A DNA stretch of 64,000 nt from Thermococcus thermotolerans (GTDB lineage Archaea; Methanobacteriota_B; Thermococci; Thermococcales; Thermococcaceae): positions 1,798,001 to 1,862,000 of the forward strand of contig NZ_CP102602.1 of the NCBI RefSeq assembly GCF_024707485.1, read 5' to 3'. The notes under the pieces were generated by a model that saw nothing but the letters and a program-made list of their open reading frames with translations, did no database searches and was not told the DNA's origin. The position numbers and the translations under genes are program-made. This document shows positions 6,245 to 47,737 of this stretch, piece after piece (positions within the stretch are counted from its first letter, which is position 1; the number at the start of each line of letters is the position of its first letter).

Positions 6245-6254
6245 GGTGATGGAC

Positions 6255-7172
6255 ATGGTGAAGGTTCTCGTTGCGGCACCGCTCCACGAAAAGGCTATCG
6301 AGGTCTTAAAGAACGTCGGTTTTGAGGTCCTTTACGAGGAGTATCCCGATGAGGAGAGGCTCATCGGGCTCGTCGGAGACGTTGATGCCATTATCGTCAG
6401 GAGCAAGCCAAAAGTGACGAGGAAGGTCATCGAGGCCGCTCCAAAGCTCAAGGTCATCGGAAGGGCCGGCGTCGGCCTCGACAATATTGACCTTGAGGCG
6501 GCAAAGGAGAGGGGCATTAAGGTTGTCAACAGCCCTAGTGCCTCAAGCAGAAGCGTCGCAGAGCTCGTCCTTGCCCTGATGTTCAACGTCGCCAGGAAGG
6601 TGGCCTTCGCTGACCGGAAGATGAGGGAAGGCGTCTGGGCGAAAAAACAAGCCATGGGGATCGAGCTTGAGGGCAAGACCCTTGGAATAGTCGGCTTCGG
6701 CAGGATAGGCTACCAGATAGCCAAGATAGCCAAAGCCCTCGGCATGAACGTTCTCCTCTACGACCCGTACCCGAACGAAGAGCGCGCGAAGGAAGTCGGT
6801 GGGAAGTTCGTCGACCTTGAGACCCTCCTGAGGGAGAGCGACGTGGTTACTCTCCACGTCCCGCTAATCGATGCCACATACCACCTCATCAACGAGGAGA
6901 GGCTCAGGCTCATGAAGCCGACCGCGATACTTATCAACGCGGCTAGGGGGGCTGTGGTTGACACCAACGCGCTAGTCAAGGCCCTTCAGGAGGGCTGGAT
7001 CGCTGGAGCTGGCCTCGACGTCTTCGAGGAGGAGCCCCTCCCGAAGGACCACCCGCTCACGAAGCTCGATAACGTGGTTCTAACCCCCCACATCGGTGCA
7101 TCGACCGTCGAGGCCCAGATGAGGGCCGGCGTTCAGGTGGCGGAGCAGATAGTTGAGATTCTGAAGGGCTGA
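6255..7172 (+). CDS. serA: D-3-phosphoglycerate dehydrogenase
   Basis: This enzyme oxidises 3-phosphoglycerate with NAD+, the first step of serine synthesis. The 305-aa product is a short-form SerA lacking the C-terminal ACT domain. It contains the 2-hydroxyacid dehydrogenase signature with a Rossmann motif (GIVGFGRIGYQIA), the catalytic Arg/Glu region, and the histidine in PHIGAST near the C terminus. I placed the start at ATG 6255 because AGGTGAT lies just upstream. In-frame GTG 6246 and ATG 6249 lie within or too near that site. It follows the DUF47 gene by about 10 bases. The repeat array at 7217 begins 45 bases after its stop. Confidence 0.93.
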   Translation: MVKVLVAAPLHEKAIEVLKNVGFEVLYEEYPDEERLIGLVGDVDAIIVRSKPKVTRKVIEAAPKLKVIGRAGVGLDNIDLEAAKERGIKVVNSPSASSRSVAELVLALMFNVARKVAFADRKMREGVWAKKQAMGIELEGKTLGIVGFGRIGYQIAKIAKALGMNVLLYDPYPNEERAKEVGGKFVDLETLLRESDVVTLHVPLIDATYHLINEERLRLMKPTAILINAARGAVVDTNALVKALQEGWIAGAGLDVFEEEPLPKDHPLTKLDNVVLTPHIGASTVEAQMRAGVQVAEQIVEILKG

Positions 7173-7216: not shown

Positions 7217-7386
7217 TTTACCATCATACTGGTGAAGTTCGCTGGAAAAGTTTACCGGTATGGTGGTACAGTTTTAGCACAAAGTTTGCAGGTATGGTGG
7301 TGCGGTTCCGCTGAAATGTGTGCCAGTATGGTGGGACAGTTTAATGCCAAAGTTTACCAATATTGTGGTAAACCGTCCGGGATTTT
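7217..7386. repeat. Five degenerate 34-bp tandem repeats carrying a TTTACCA-N6-TGGTAAA palindrome
   Basis: Units start at 7217, 7251, 7285, 7319 and 7353, each exactly 34 bp and directly abutting. The first 20 bp of each unit form a dyad with arms TTTACCA and TGGTAAA around 6 bp. The copy at 7353-7372 is perfect. The other four have one to five arm mismatches. In the first four units the remaining 14 bp also resemble each other (CAGTTT..GC..AAAG). The array ends about 15 bases before the TTAAAACTTTTT promoter of the fumarase operon. There are no spacers, so it is not CRISPR. A cluster of operator sites is the simplest reading. Confidence 0.85.
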
Positions 7387-7399
7387 GTGCAATGTTTAA

Positions 7400-7440
7400 G
7401 TTAAAACTTTTTAACTACGGCCTCAATCTTCAACAGGTGG
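7400..7440 (+). promoter_or_regulatory. TATA promoter and ribosome binding site of the fumarase operon
   Basis: TTAAAACTTTTTAA at 7401-7414 is a TATA/BRE-like element. AGGTGG at 7435-7440 lies 7 bases before the TTG at 7448 and fixes that unusual start. An ATG at 7441 runs into a stop after four codons. Confidence 0.65.
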
Positions 7441-7447
7441 ATGCCAA

Positions 7448-8299
7448 TTGATTGAGGCTATCGTCGAGGCGATAAGGCTGGCCGTTACGAGGATTCCTGA
7501 CGACGTTGTTTTGGCTCTCAGAAAGGCCTACGCCGAGGAGGAGAACGAGACAGCGCGCTTCAACCTCGGAAACATAATCAAGGCAATAGACCTCGGCTTC
7601 GCCGACCGGGTTCCCGTCTGCCAGGACACGGGCACGGTAACCTTCTTCGTTGAGGCCGGCGTTGGGAGTCCTTTTCTCGGCGAGGTTAGGGGCTGGCTCA
7701 TCGAGGCGACGAGGAGGGCAACTGAGGAAATACCCCTCAGGCCCAACGCCGTTGACGTCCTCACCGGAAGGAACTCCGGCGACAACACTGGAGAAGGGAT
7801 TCCCATAATTCACTGGGAGCCCGTTCCGGGGGACAGAATAAGGATAGCTGTTCTTCCAAAAGGTGGCGGAAGTGAGAACTGCTCTGCTTTAGCGATGCTG
7901 ACCCCTGCCGAGGGCTGGAAAGGCCTAACGCGCTTCGTAGTCGAGCACGTCAAGGCCTGCGGTGGAAAGCCGTGCCCGCCGGTCATCCTGGGCATAGGGG
8001 TTGGTGGAAGTGCAGATTACGCCCTGCTCCTGGCCAAAAAGGCCCTGCTGAGGAAGGTGGGCGAGAGGAACCCGAATGGTAGGATAGCGAAAATCGAGGA
8101 GGAACTTCTGACGGCAGTGAACAGCACAGGAATCGGCCCCATGGGGATGGGGGGAAAGACCACCGCTCTGGACGTCAAGATAGAGGTCGCCCACAGGCAT
8201 CCGGCGAGCTTTCCGGTAGGACTGGTCGTTCAGTGCTGGGCCAACAGGAGGGCGTTCATCGAGATAAAGCCCGACGGGAGGGTGGACGTGTGGCAGTGA
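7448..8299 (+). CDS. Class I fumarate hydratase, alpha subunit
   Basis: This is the iron-sulfur fumarase alpha chain (TtdA/FumA N-terminal domain), which interconverts fumarate and malate with the beta chain. The 283-aa protein shows the [4Fe-4S] ligand regions VCQDTGTV (near residue 57) and GSENCSAL, plus the GGSADYALLLAKKALL segment typical of the family. Translation starts at TTG 7448 with AGGTGG upstream. It overlaps the beta-subunit gene by 10 bases. Thermococcales have an incomplete citric acid cycle, so this pair probably serves C4 acid interconversion together with the malic enzyme encoded 2 kb downstream. A tartrate dehydratase role is a less likely alternative. Confidence 0.92.
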   Translation: MIEAIVEAIRLAVTRIPDDVVLALRKAYAEEENETARFNLGNIIKAIDLGFADRVPVCQDTGTVTFFVEAGVGSPFLGEVRGWLIEATRRATEEIPLRPNAVDVLTGRNSGDNTGEGIPIIHWEPVPGDRIRIAVLPKGGGSENCSALAMLTPAEGWKGLTRFVVEHVKACGGKPCPPVILGIGVGGSADYALLLAKKALLRKVGERNPNGRIAKIEEELLTAVNSTGIGPMGMGGKTTALDVKIEVAHRHPASFPVGLVVQCWANRRAFIEIKPDGRVDVWQ

Positions 8300-8811
8300 G
8301 GCTGAGGACTCCACTGAGTGAGGAGGACGTTTTGAAGCTCAAGGCTGGGGACATCGTTCACCTCTCCGGGATAATCTACACCGCCAGGGACTCGGCACAC
8401 AGGAAGATCCTTGAGCTGGCAGAGAGGGGAGAACTTCCCTTCGACCTCAACGGGGCCGTTATCTATCACTGCGGGCCGGTGGTGAGGAAAACATCCAATG
8501 GTTATGAGATACTCTCCGCCGGACCGACGACGAGCGCGAGGATGAACCGCTATTTGGACGAAATCCTCTCCCTCGGCGTCCGCGGGATAATAGGGAAGGG
8601 CGGCATGGATGTCGGGCCATTCAAAGACCGCGCCGTTTACTTCTCCTTCACCGGGGGAGCCGGCTCACTCGCGGCCAAGAGCGTAAAGCGCGTCGTTGAC
8701 GTCCTCTGGCTGGAGGAGCTGGGGATTCCGGAGGCGGTGTGGGTTCTTGAGGTTGAGGATTTTCCGGTGCTCGTGGCCATAGATTCTCGTGGGAACTCGC
8801 TCTATCGCTAA
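8290..8811 (+). CDS. Class I fumarate hydratase, beta subunit
   Basis: This is the beta chain of the iron-sulfur fumarase (TtdB/FumA C-terminal domain), 173 aa. Recognisable segments are LRTPLSEEDVLKLKAGD at the N terminus, YHCGPVV, the substrate-binding GPTTSARM and the GKGGM turn. The start is GTG 8290 or GTG 8296. Both lie downstream of GGTGG at 8281-8285, and the second would form a GTGA overlap with the alpha stop. The longer open frame beginning at 8233 is a shadow inside the alpha gene. The gene ends in a 4-base convergent overlap with the CoA-transferase gene. Confidence 0.92.
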   Translation: MAVRLRTPLSEEDVLKLKAGDIVHLSGIIYTARDSAHRKILELAERGELPFDLNGAVIYHCGPVVRKTSNGYEILSAGPTTSARMNRYLDEILSLGVRGIIGKGGMDVGPFKDRAVYFSFTGGAGSLAAKSVKRVVDVLWLEELGIPEAVWVLEVEDFPVLVAIDSRGNSLYR

Positions 8812-46146: not shown

Positions 46147-46510
46147 CCTGGTGGACATAACCCGGGAGGTCGAAAAGACCGTTGAGGAGTCTGGAATAAG
46201 AAACGGACAGGTTCTCGTCTTCGTTCCCGGGGCGACTGGCGCGATAGTCACGATAGAGCACGAGTCCGGTCTTTTGGAGGACTTCAAGCGAGCTTTGAGG
46301 GAGCTGATCCCGAAGGGCCAGGGCTACCTCCACGACAGGATAGACGACAACGCCCACAGCCACCTTCGCGCGACGCTCCTCGGCGCGAGCAAATGCTTCC
46401 CCGTCGTTGACGGCAGACTCGTGCGCGGAACATGGCAACAGATTTTCTTCGTCGAACTCGATGTGATACCGAGACACAGGCGCGTTATAGTGCAGGTTGT
46501 GGGGGAATGA
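46097..46510 (+). CDS. YjbQ / UPF0047 family protein, possible secondary thiamine-phosphate synthase
   Basis: This 137-aa single-domain protein of the UPF0047 (YjbQ) family starts MKVLTRELRFSTKGEIDLVDITREVE. Conserved residues include the VFVPGATGAIVTIEHESGLLEDF segment and the HDRIDDNAHSHLRATLLGAS motif with the conserved histidines. E. coli YjbQ can replace ThiE, giving a secondary thiamine-phosphate synthase activity. Its position behind thiR supports that link. ATG 46097 has GGTGG upstream. It overlaps the VanZ gene by 50 bases and the ATPase gene by 26. Confidence 0.85.
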   Translation: MKVLTRELRFSTKGEIDLVDITREVEKTVEESGIRNGQVLVFVPGATGAIVTIEHESGLLEDFKRALRELIPKGQGYLHDRIDDNAHSHLRATLLGASKCFPVVDGRLVRGTWQQIFFVELDVIPRHRRVIVQVVGE

Positions 46511-47675
46511 TGTCAAGGAGGAAAAATGGCACATCTTCCTTTTCGAGCACGATGACGTTCTTTGGGTATTTCCTATGGGCTTTTCCTGCCTTTACCTCAA
46601 CCTTCAAGTCACCTGCTATCGCATCAACCTCGTAGGAATTCCTGTAATAGTAAACTTCTTCGAACCTCCGGTATAGATGCTCTTGGACGACCCATTCGTA
46701 GAGGGCTTCCTCTCTCAACTGAGCACCGCTCCAGACAGAGAAAAGCCGTGCTAAAAGCGGGTCTCTAAAGAAGAACTTCTTCTCCCGCTTGTAGAGTACC
46801 TGATCTCCCTGTTTGAGGTACGCTATCCCGAGCACATACAGCTCCCTAAAGAACTCGATGTAGTCTTGAACCACCTTGTAGGAGTAGCCTGAGGTAGCTT
46901 TAGCTAATGCCCTAAAGCTCGTAGCCGAAGGGGCGCTTCGGATTACTGCCGCCATGGTTTCTCTGGCTATCTCAAGGCTCTTTCCAAAACGGGCGAATTC
47001 TCCTATGTACGCTCCGAGAAGATCGTCCATGGGGAGGCCGTTGATTGATCCCGGGAAACCACCGGTTTTCAGGTACTCCTCAAAGAGTTTCAGCGTCTTT
47101 TTCCTGTGAAGTTCCGGTCTTTTCAGACCCATGACCTCAATGTATTCCCCGAAAGACAGTGGCATGACTTCAAGGGTTCTTCCTTTTCCTTTCCTTCCTG
47201 GGAACAGCTCTATGTCCCGCTTCACCCTCAGAGAGCTTGATCCAGTAACCGTGATCACGTCGTTCTCTAAGATGCCAGCATCAATGAGCGGCTTAATCCC
47301 CCTCCACCACCCTTCGAGTGATGAGGCCTCATCTAGGAAGACGTATCCCCTTTTGATGCCTCCCTTCTCCTTTAGTTCCTGGAACTCCCTTATCAAGGCT
47401 GAGAGCTCTCTATAGTCTGGAAGGATCTCAACGTTGATGTAGAGAACTGACTCAGGTGGATTTTCTTTCAGGAGTTCCTGGATGAGAAGTTTTATCCCCG
47501 TGGTCTTCCCCACCTGCCTCGGGCCGAGGACGAAGTTGAGCGAGAACGGTTCGAGTGAGAGCTCATCAATCCATTTAGGCCACCAATGGATTTTTTGCTC
47601 TCTCCAGCGCCTCGCGTGGTAGTCTTCCTTTCCTTCCCACCAGGGGTTCATGTAGCTCAAATCCCCGAGCCTCAT
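46485..47675 (-). CDS. Archaeal AAA ATPase with DUF4143 domain
   Basis: This 396-aa protein has an N-terminal P-loop (LGPRQVGKTTGIKLLI, Walker A), a Walker B at VFLDEASSLEGWW and an SGSSSLR-type sensor. A helical and winged-helix middle and a DUF4143-like C-terminal region (EVDAIAGDLKVEVKAG, a restriction-nuclease-like fold core) follow. Such ATPases are common, highly mobile gene products in archaea and are of unknown role. It is probably monocistronic under the operator-flanked promoter at 47685-47737, pointing to tight repression. Its codon use is more AT-rich than that of its neighbours, suggesting an acquired gene. Confidence 0.88.
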   Translation of the reverse strand: MRLGDLSYMNPWWEGKEDYHARRWREQKIHWWPKWIDELSLEPFSLNFVLGPRQVGKTTGIKLLIQELLKENPPESVLYINVEILPDYRELSALIREFQELKEKGGIKRGYVFLDEASSLEGWWRGIKPLIDAGILENDVITVTGSSSLRVKRDIELFPGRKGKGRTLEVMPLSFGEYIEVMGLKRPELHRKKTLKLFEEYLKTGGFPGSINGLPMDDLLGAYIGEFARFGKSLEIARETMAAVIRSAPSATSFRALAKATSGYSYKVVQDYIEFFRELYVLGIAYLKQGDQVLYKREKKFFFRDPLLARLFSVWSGAQLREEALYEWVVQEHLYRRFEEVYYYRNSYEVDAIAGDLKVEVKAGKAHRKYPKNVIVLEKEDVPFFLLDIIPPQPAL

Positions 47676-47684
47676 ACCAACACC

Positions 47685-47737
47685 TGAGAAGTTGTAGTTC
47701 TCACACCTTTATAAAGGTTGAGAATTGTGGGTTCTCA
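47685..47737. promoter_or_regulatory. Two TGAGAA-N7-TTCTCA operators flanking the TATA box of the ATPase gene
   Basis: Identical-arm dyads lie at 47685-47703 (spacer GTTGTAG) and 47719-47737 (spacer TTGTGGG), 34 bp apart. Between them is the palindromic TATA element CCTTTATAAAGG (47707-47718). Transcription runs to the minus strand into the gene starting at 47675, so the first dyad covers the expected start site and the second the upstream side. This is a classic archaeal repression layout. Confidence 0.8.

Follow-up and report, generated by a model that had tools for sequence, protein, structure and literature searches.

A decaying row of palindromes upstream of the Thermococcus thermotolerans fumarase genes is probably the orphaned operator of a deleted AAA_14-DUF4143 ATPase gene

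Five 20-bp dyads lie in steps of exactly 34 bp between a serA-like gene and the fumarase genes of Thermococcus thermotolerans (Table 1), and the question that this locus raises is which gene such an array serves, or once served. The original prediction took the dyads for operator sites, perhaps a platform for the control of C4-acid metabolism, or else for a remnant of repeat expansion. We considered the array within its window (the whole 64-kb stretch of DNA that was analysed) and across 94 genomes of the family, the window's own genome (2.07 Mb) being labelled G000. The positions of the five dyads and their 34-bp steps were reproduced, as were the perfect outer arms (TTTACCA/TGGTAAA) of the promoter-proximal unit, which is the sole zero-mismatch match in G000. 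Tandem Repeats Finder gave the stretch 7247-7370, with period 34, its top score in the window; the two-site dyad score of the array (z 7.54) exceeded all of 300 local Markov simulations (at most 7.18), and was the second highest dyad-pair score within the 64 kb. Two details of the first description did not hold. The units had been called progressively degraded towards the distal end, but in matched outer positions the distal unit ranks second and the middle unit last, so that the decay is not progressive. The array was also said to end just before the TATA element; it stops about 34 bp ahead of the fumarase TATA (CTTTTTAAC), and the sequence 3′ of the fifth dyad differs from the conserved GTTT...AAAG linker.

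Table 1. Features of the array locus and of the second ATPase locus in the window (window coordinates)
Feature	Position	Strand	Basis
serA-like 2-hydroxyacid dehydrogenase, constant upstream neighbour of the array	6246-7172	+	Pfam 2-Hacid_dh_C, E 7e-73
Dyad unit 1 (distal), TTTACCATCATACTGGTGAA	7217-7236	+	13/14 outer positions matched
Dyad unit 2, TTTACCGGTATGGTGGTACA	7251-7270	+	12/14 outer positions matched
Dyad unit 3, worst decayed, TTTGCAGGTATGGTGGTGCG	7285-7304	+	8/14 outer positions matched
Dyad unit 4, TGTGCCAGTATGGTGGGACA	7319-7338	+	10/14 outer positions matched
Dyad unit 5 (proximal), TTTACCAATATTGTGGTAAA, outer arms perfect	7353-7372	+	14/14 outer positions matched
Inferred deletion scar, shared with sister genome G023	7373-7406	.	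Comparison of intact and lost loci
Fumarase TATA element, CTTTTTAAC	7407-7415	+	Inferred from sequence
Fumarase alpha subunit, TTG start	7448-8299	+	Pfam Fumerase, E 3e-97
Fumarase beta subunit, start codon inferred	8290-8811	+	Pfam Fumerase_C, E 2.5e-44
AAA_14 ATPase, same superfamily as the array's presumed partner	46485-47675	-	Pfam AAA_14, E 5.7e-24; partial PADLOC PDC-S01 match, E 4.5e-31
Start-proximal palindrome of the 46485-47675 promoter, minus strand TGAGAACTACAACTTCTCA	47685-47703	-	Pair lag 34
Distal palindrome of the 46485-47675 promoter, minus strand TGAGAACCCACAATTCTCA	47719-47737	-	Pair lag 34

Related genomes do keep the dyad. An exact search of the 94 genomes gave matches in twelve, nearly all of them at the array locus, where two or three often follow one another in 34-bp steps, and the array, or remnants of it, was found in about 40 Thermococcus genomes; the consensus read from the relatives' loci is TTTACCAGTATACTGGTAAA, with a 34-bp period. 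In many of these relatives a 430-amino-acid gene lies between the array and fumarase, encoding an ATPase of the AAA_14-DUF4143 type (COG1373; the PADLOC ‘PDC-S01’), which we call group A (AAA_14 E 1e-27, DUF4143 E 5e-28, PDC-S01 E 2e-108). PDC-S01, described as an ATPase fused to a PD-(D/E)xK domain, is reported to rank fourth by frequency among prokaryotic defence candidates, to be enriched in Archaea and to be unvalidated (PMC12988326).

The array stands at the ATPase promoter in 19 of the 19 related Thermococcus genomes which have an intact group-A gene just downstream: the last dyad abuts the ATPase TATA box (TGGTAAActttatagg), and such arrays are 1.3 kb away from fumarase. This position, together with the greater conservation of the arms than of the linker core (85% versus 44% identical among 18 intact genomes), favours the earlier guess that the dyads would form an operator. 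The proposed tie to fumarase and C4-acid metabolism did not survive tabulation of the serA-downstream region across the genus (the serA-like gene itself has an ortholog in 92 of the 94 genomes). Some 20 other genomes have array remnants, some of them strongly decayed, with no intact group-A gene, and in nine fumarase comes straight after serA and the array is absent; the array and ATPase occur with no detected fumarase in G056, G051 and G049 (the assemblies of the last two being incomplete), and a remnant array with neither ATPase nor detected fumarase occurs in G032 and G068. Beyond rare single matches with two mismatches, the dyad was found nowhere else in ten ATPase-carrying genomes, nor in a regulon search of G000, and among the genomes scanned it was absent from other metabolic promoters and fumarase-pathway genes. 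No transcription factor gene was found to accompany the group-A locus.

G000 has no group-A ATPase, its closest family member (47% identical) being encoded elsewhere in the genome, so that the array is probably without its partner. Remnants of the 3′ end of the ATPase gene follow the array in G045/G034, in G044/G063/G019 and in G048/G027/G057, with at least three different junctions. The stretch in G034 (ATTCCCACGTCAAACTTTTTAATCAAAACCCCAACC) is identical to the ATPase 3′ end of the intact G043 and G065, and the corresponding matches are CGCTCTGGAGGTGGCTTTTAAATCC in G027 and ATTCTCGCGTCAATCTTTTTAACTC in both G019 and G044; ATPase fragments are also present in G072 and G061. In the window, the ATPase TATA and the 430-amino-acid gene of the relatives would have occupied the place of the scar listed in Table 1, the junction of which is common to G000 and its sister G023, whose sequence is collinear. 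The scar is too diverged to be read as ATPase sequence, and we infer it from the relatives; most likely, a group-A gene once stood between the array and fumarase and was deleted in the window's lineage. In G016 and G040 the group-A locus seems to be interrupted by inserted DNA and not deleted. In intact relatives (for example loci L072 and L078) the fumarase TATA element is embedded in the final ATPase codons. Deletions of the ATPase must thus end before this TATA, which may explain why scars recur.

The sites are weaker where the gene is gone. Out of 20, the proximal site scores on average 16.7 where the ATPase gene is intact and 14.2 where it is lost (Mann-Whitney p 0.0008), and the two best sites 17.1 and 15.4 (p 0.007), both comparisons being between related, phylogenetically non-independent genomes. 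Between G000 and G023 the sites are 87% identical, the linkers 89% and the spacer 92%, so the sites are no better conserved than their surroundings. Nearly perfect arrays are nevertheless retained by G045 and G034 despite the absence of the ATPase. The part of the original prediction which spoke of a remnant comes close, though as the remnant of a deleted gene's operator and not of a neutral repeat expansion; the window's array would be an orphaned operator, now probably without function.

An arrangement of this kind is not peculiar to group A. Other palindromes with a like spacing were first noticed upstream of paralogs. We then scored upstream regions in a blind scan for two palindromes, each self-matching and also matching its partner, with the spacing left free between 22 and 60 bp, and the best spacing was 33-35 bp in 11 of 15 ATPase protein clusters of a first set from Thermococci. 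This spacing was fixed as a prediction before 40 further genes were fetched, and it was the best one in 12 of the 13 new clusters which these formed (p 1.6e-11; if the background rate is taken as 0.16, p 3e-9). Control upstream regions had a median z of 4.9, with 20 of 154 at this spacing; a single control score of 7.8 agreed in both score and lag with the pair before the window's other family member. The array and other family members thus share palindromes about 18-22 bp long that recur every 33-35 bp, and the palindrome sequences differ between ATPase subfamilies, with more than 15 operator sequences at one spacing. In one new cluster TGTGTATTAGTAATACACA occurs twice, with 54 of 54 comparisons matching; TACTCATTAGCAATGAGTA/TACTCATTATTAATGAGTA are an example from another family of the class; and in another family of the same class two members fit well (L254/L290 at lag 33, z 11.2, and L292 at lag 34). 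Many of the ATPase promoters have their TATA box between both palindromes. In Thermococci, then, most AAA_14-DUF4143 subfamilies have private tandem palindromes, 33-35 bp apart, at their own promoters. We found no earlier description in the open-access literature of such a rule, nor of a promoter, operator or DNA-binding specificity of PDC-S01.

The window itself holds an unprompted positive control for the rule. The pair of palindromes before the ATPase gene at 46485-47675 (in the product of which DUF4143 is not scored by Pfam) is the top-scoring dyad pair of the 64 kb, and was met unprompted in the window-wide scan; all 15 of 15 orthologs have palindromes of the TGAGAACT...AGTTCTCA type at lag 34 around a TATA-like tttataaa. 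A single-sequence structure prediction of this ATPase gave a pLDDT of 34.6, too low to be usable, and we found no solved relatives of AAA_14-DUF4143 ATPases beyond weak matches to two Walker-type ATPases.

Outside Thermococci the generality of the rule is only suggestive. Among bacterial and other archaeal plasmid homologs, 5 of 12 had best lags of 32-33, for the most part at weak scores, and of three loci in bacterial genomes two depart from the spacing. A scan of viral contigs for the ATPase gave no relatives. Individual loci also show variety. At the DUF4143 ATPase locus L184 (G000:C1:791599 region) the palindromes (TATGAAAGTGCACTTTCATA) form a longer row, of which three surround the TATA in 32-bp steps and the others lie upstream, and in the subfamily of L160 and L172 the TATA is flanked by the arms of one long inverted repeat (TTAAGTAGAGAGGTAAA...TTTACCTCTATACTTAA), with no clear tandem pair. 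Close to the start of a Pseudoramibacter DUF4143 gene (L288) there is a 33-bp direct repeat (AAGAAACTGCA..TTTTG), which could be coding or operator sequence, and on an Enterococcus gilvus plasmid (L226) the palindromes TTTGAACTAAACTTCAAA/TTTGAAGTTTAGTTCAAA are found 39 bp apart upstream of a homolog. On a Treponema plasmid (L219) the family member is flanked by type I restriction genes (hsdR and a methyltransferase), consistent with its label as a defence candidate.

We propose, with reasonable confidence, that the array is the orphaned operator of a deleted AAA_14-DUF4143 ATPase gene, the intact versions of which would repress themselves through their tandem palindromes. That each subfamily has an operator of its own, that the dyad of the array occurs at one locus and that a single spacing is shared by many sequences makes the encoded ATPase the simplest candidate as binder. 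The intact protein would bind the palindromes beside its own TATA box through a winged helix-turn-helix that DUF4143 would carry in its N-terminal half. For one member, sub-threshold matches of this half were to GntR, HTH_11, HTH_24 and other winged-helix families, below the Pfam cut-offs, and to the PADLOC CasR. A step of 33-35 bp is about three helical turns, which fits side-by-side cooperative filling of the sites on one face of the DNA, and the position of the palindromes at and around the TATA suggests that their occupation would shut off transcription of the ATPase itself. In G000, with the cognate gene gone, the five decaying units would face fumarase by chance, and fumarase would not now be regulated by them.

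Alternatives to this reading differ in what they make of the same evidence. Were the array the operator through which a C4-acid or redox regulator controls the fumarase operon, its place directly upstream of the fumarase promoter in G000 would be accounted for, as would the good sites that precede fumarase in the ATPase-less G045, G034 and G048. Yet there are fumarase loci without the array and arrays without fumarase, a pattern of co-occurrence on which we rejected this explanation, and intact arrays adjoin the ATPase TATA, far from fumarase, while no other metabolic promoter has the dyad; we regard it as very improbable. It is easier, though still unlikely, to imagine that a former ATPase operator was captured by fumarase after the loss, and is bound by a paralogous ATPase or another protein. 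The perfect arms of the proximal dyad in G000 speak for such a capture, and the near-perfect pairs of G045 and G034, both of which lack group A, would agree with it. However, sites are weaker overall after loss of the ATPase, those of G000 and G023 are not more conserved than the spacer, the operator of the closest G000 paralog is a different one (TTTGTGGTT..AACCACAAA), and G045 is without any family member at the threshold used.

The self-repression that we favour must also be set against control of each ATPase promoter by a separate gene-specific DNA-binding protein. The ATPase is itself a putative binder, and a Mantel test of operator against protein similarity over 16 subfamilies gave no signal (rho 0.065, p 0.25), so that co-evolution of protein and operator lacks statistical support between distant subfamilies. 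Against separate regulators, a single spacing across more than 15 different operator sequences suggests a common binding architecture, encoded most simply by the family itself; DUF4143 has its winged-helix-like part, and the group-A locus has no transcription factor gene to fill the role. We would give this alternative a small chance. That the units are merely a neutral tandem duplication, functionless in every genome, is scarcely credible: they are tandem, and some arrays are clearly decaying, but the arms are conserved well above the linker core in intact genomes, and other family members show this spacing again with sequences that are unrelated. An orphaned operator of the lost ATPase gene remains our preferred account.

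Several known systems resemble what we propose. Toxin-antitoxin antitoxins and the C proteins of restriction-modification systems use gene-private, in-phase palindromes which overlap their own promoters, at genes that are patchy and easily lost. The ATPase palindromes are likewise private, tandem and at the gene's own promoter, but the regulator in those systems is a small dedicated protein, whereas the presumed binder here is a 430-amino-acid ATPase, each subfamily of which has its own sequence at a fixed spacing of 33-35 bp. Archaeal initiators of the Orc1/Cdc6 type, in which an AAA+ ATPase with a winged helix recognises repeated DNA sites (origin boxes), offer another likeness, as an ATPase, a winged-helix-like part and repeated sites would be combined in our model also. 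In contrast to origin boxes, however, the ATPase palindromes are at the gene's own TATA and have no origin context, and AAA_14 ATPases have DUF4143 and a nuclease-like C-terminus, not the Orc fold. The Thermococcales regulators TrmBL1, SurR, Phr and CopR have palindromic operators near TATA/BRE and each control more than one gene, while the array dyad is at one locus only; to our knowledge it resembles none of their motifs.

The apparent control region of fumarase would, on our preferred account, be a fossil of gene loss, and recognising it as such removes a wrong lead into C4 metabolism. The group-A gene which was its likely partner belongs to COG1373, and thus to the AAA_14-DUF4143 ATPases, which are reported to be among the most frequent putative defence genes in prokaryotes (PMC12988326) though they are little characterised. 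More speculatively, and with considerable doubt on our own part, we suggest that PDC-S01 proteins may be a large family of self-addressing DNA-binding ATPases, each paralog recognising a palindrome of its own with a fixed three-turn geometry, the paralogs being silenced by their own arrays and released when an invader diverts the protein or switches its ATPase. If this were true, the array would be the resting dock of a sensor, and turnover of operator sequences would prevent cross-talk among paralogs in one cell. Private operators of fixed spacing predict, at the least, that these ATPases bind DNA, which sequence each of them would bind, and that their expression would be self-limited.
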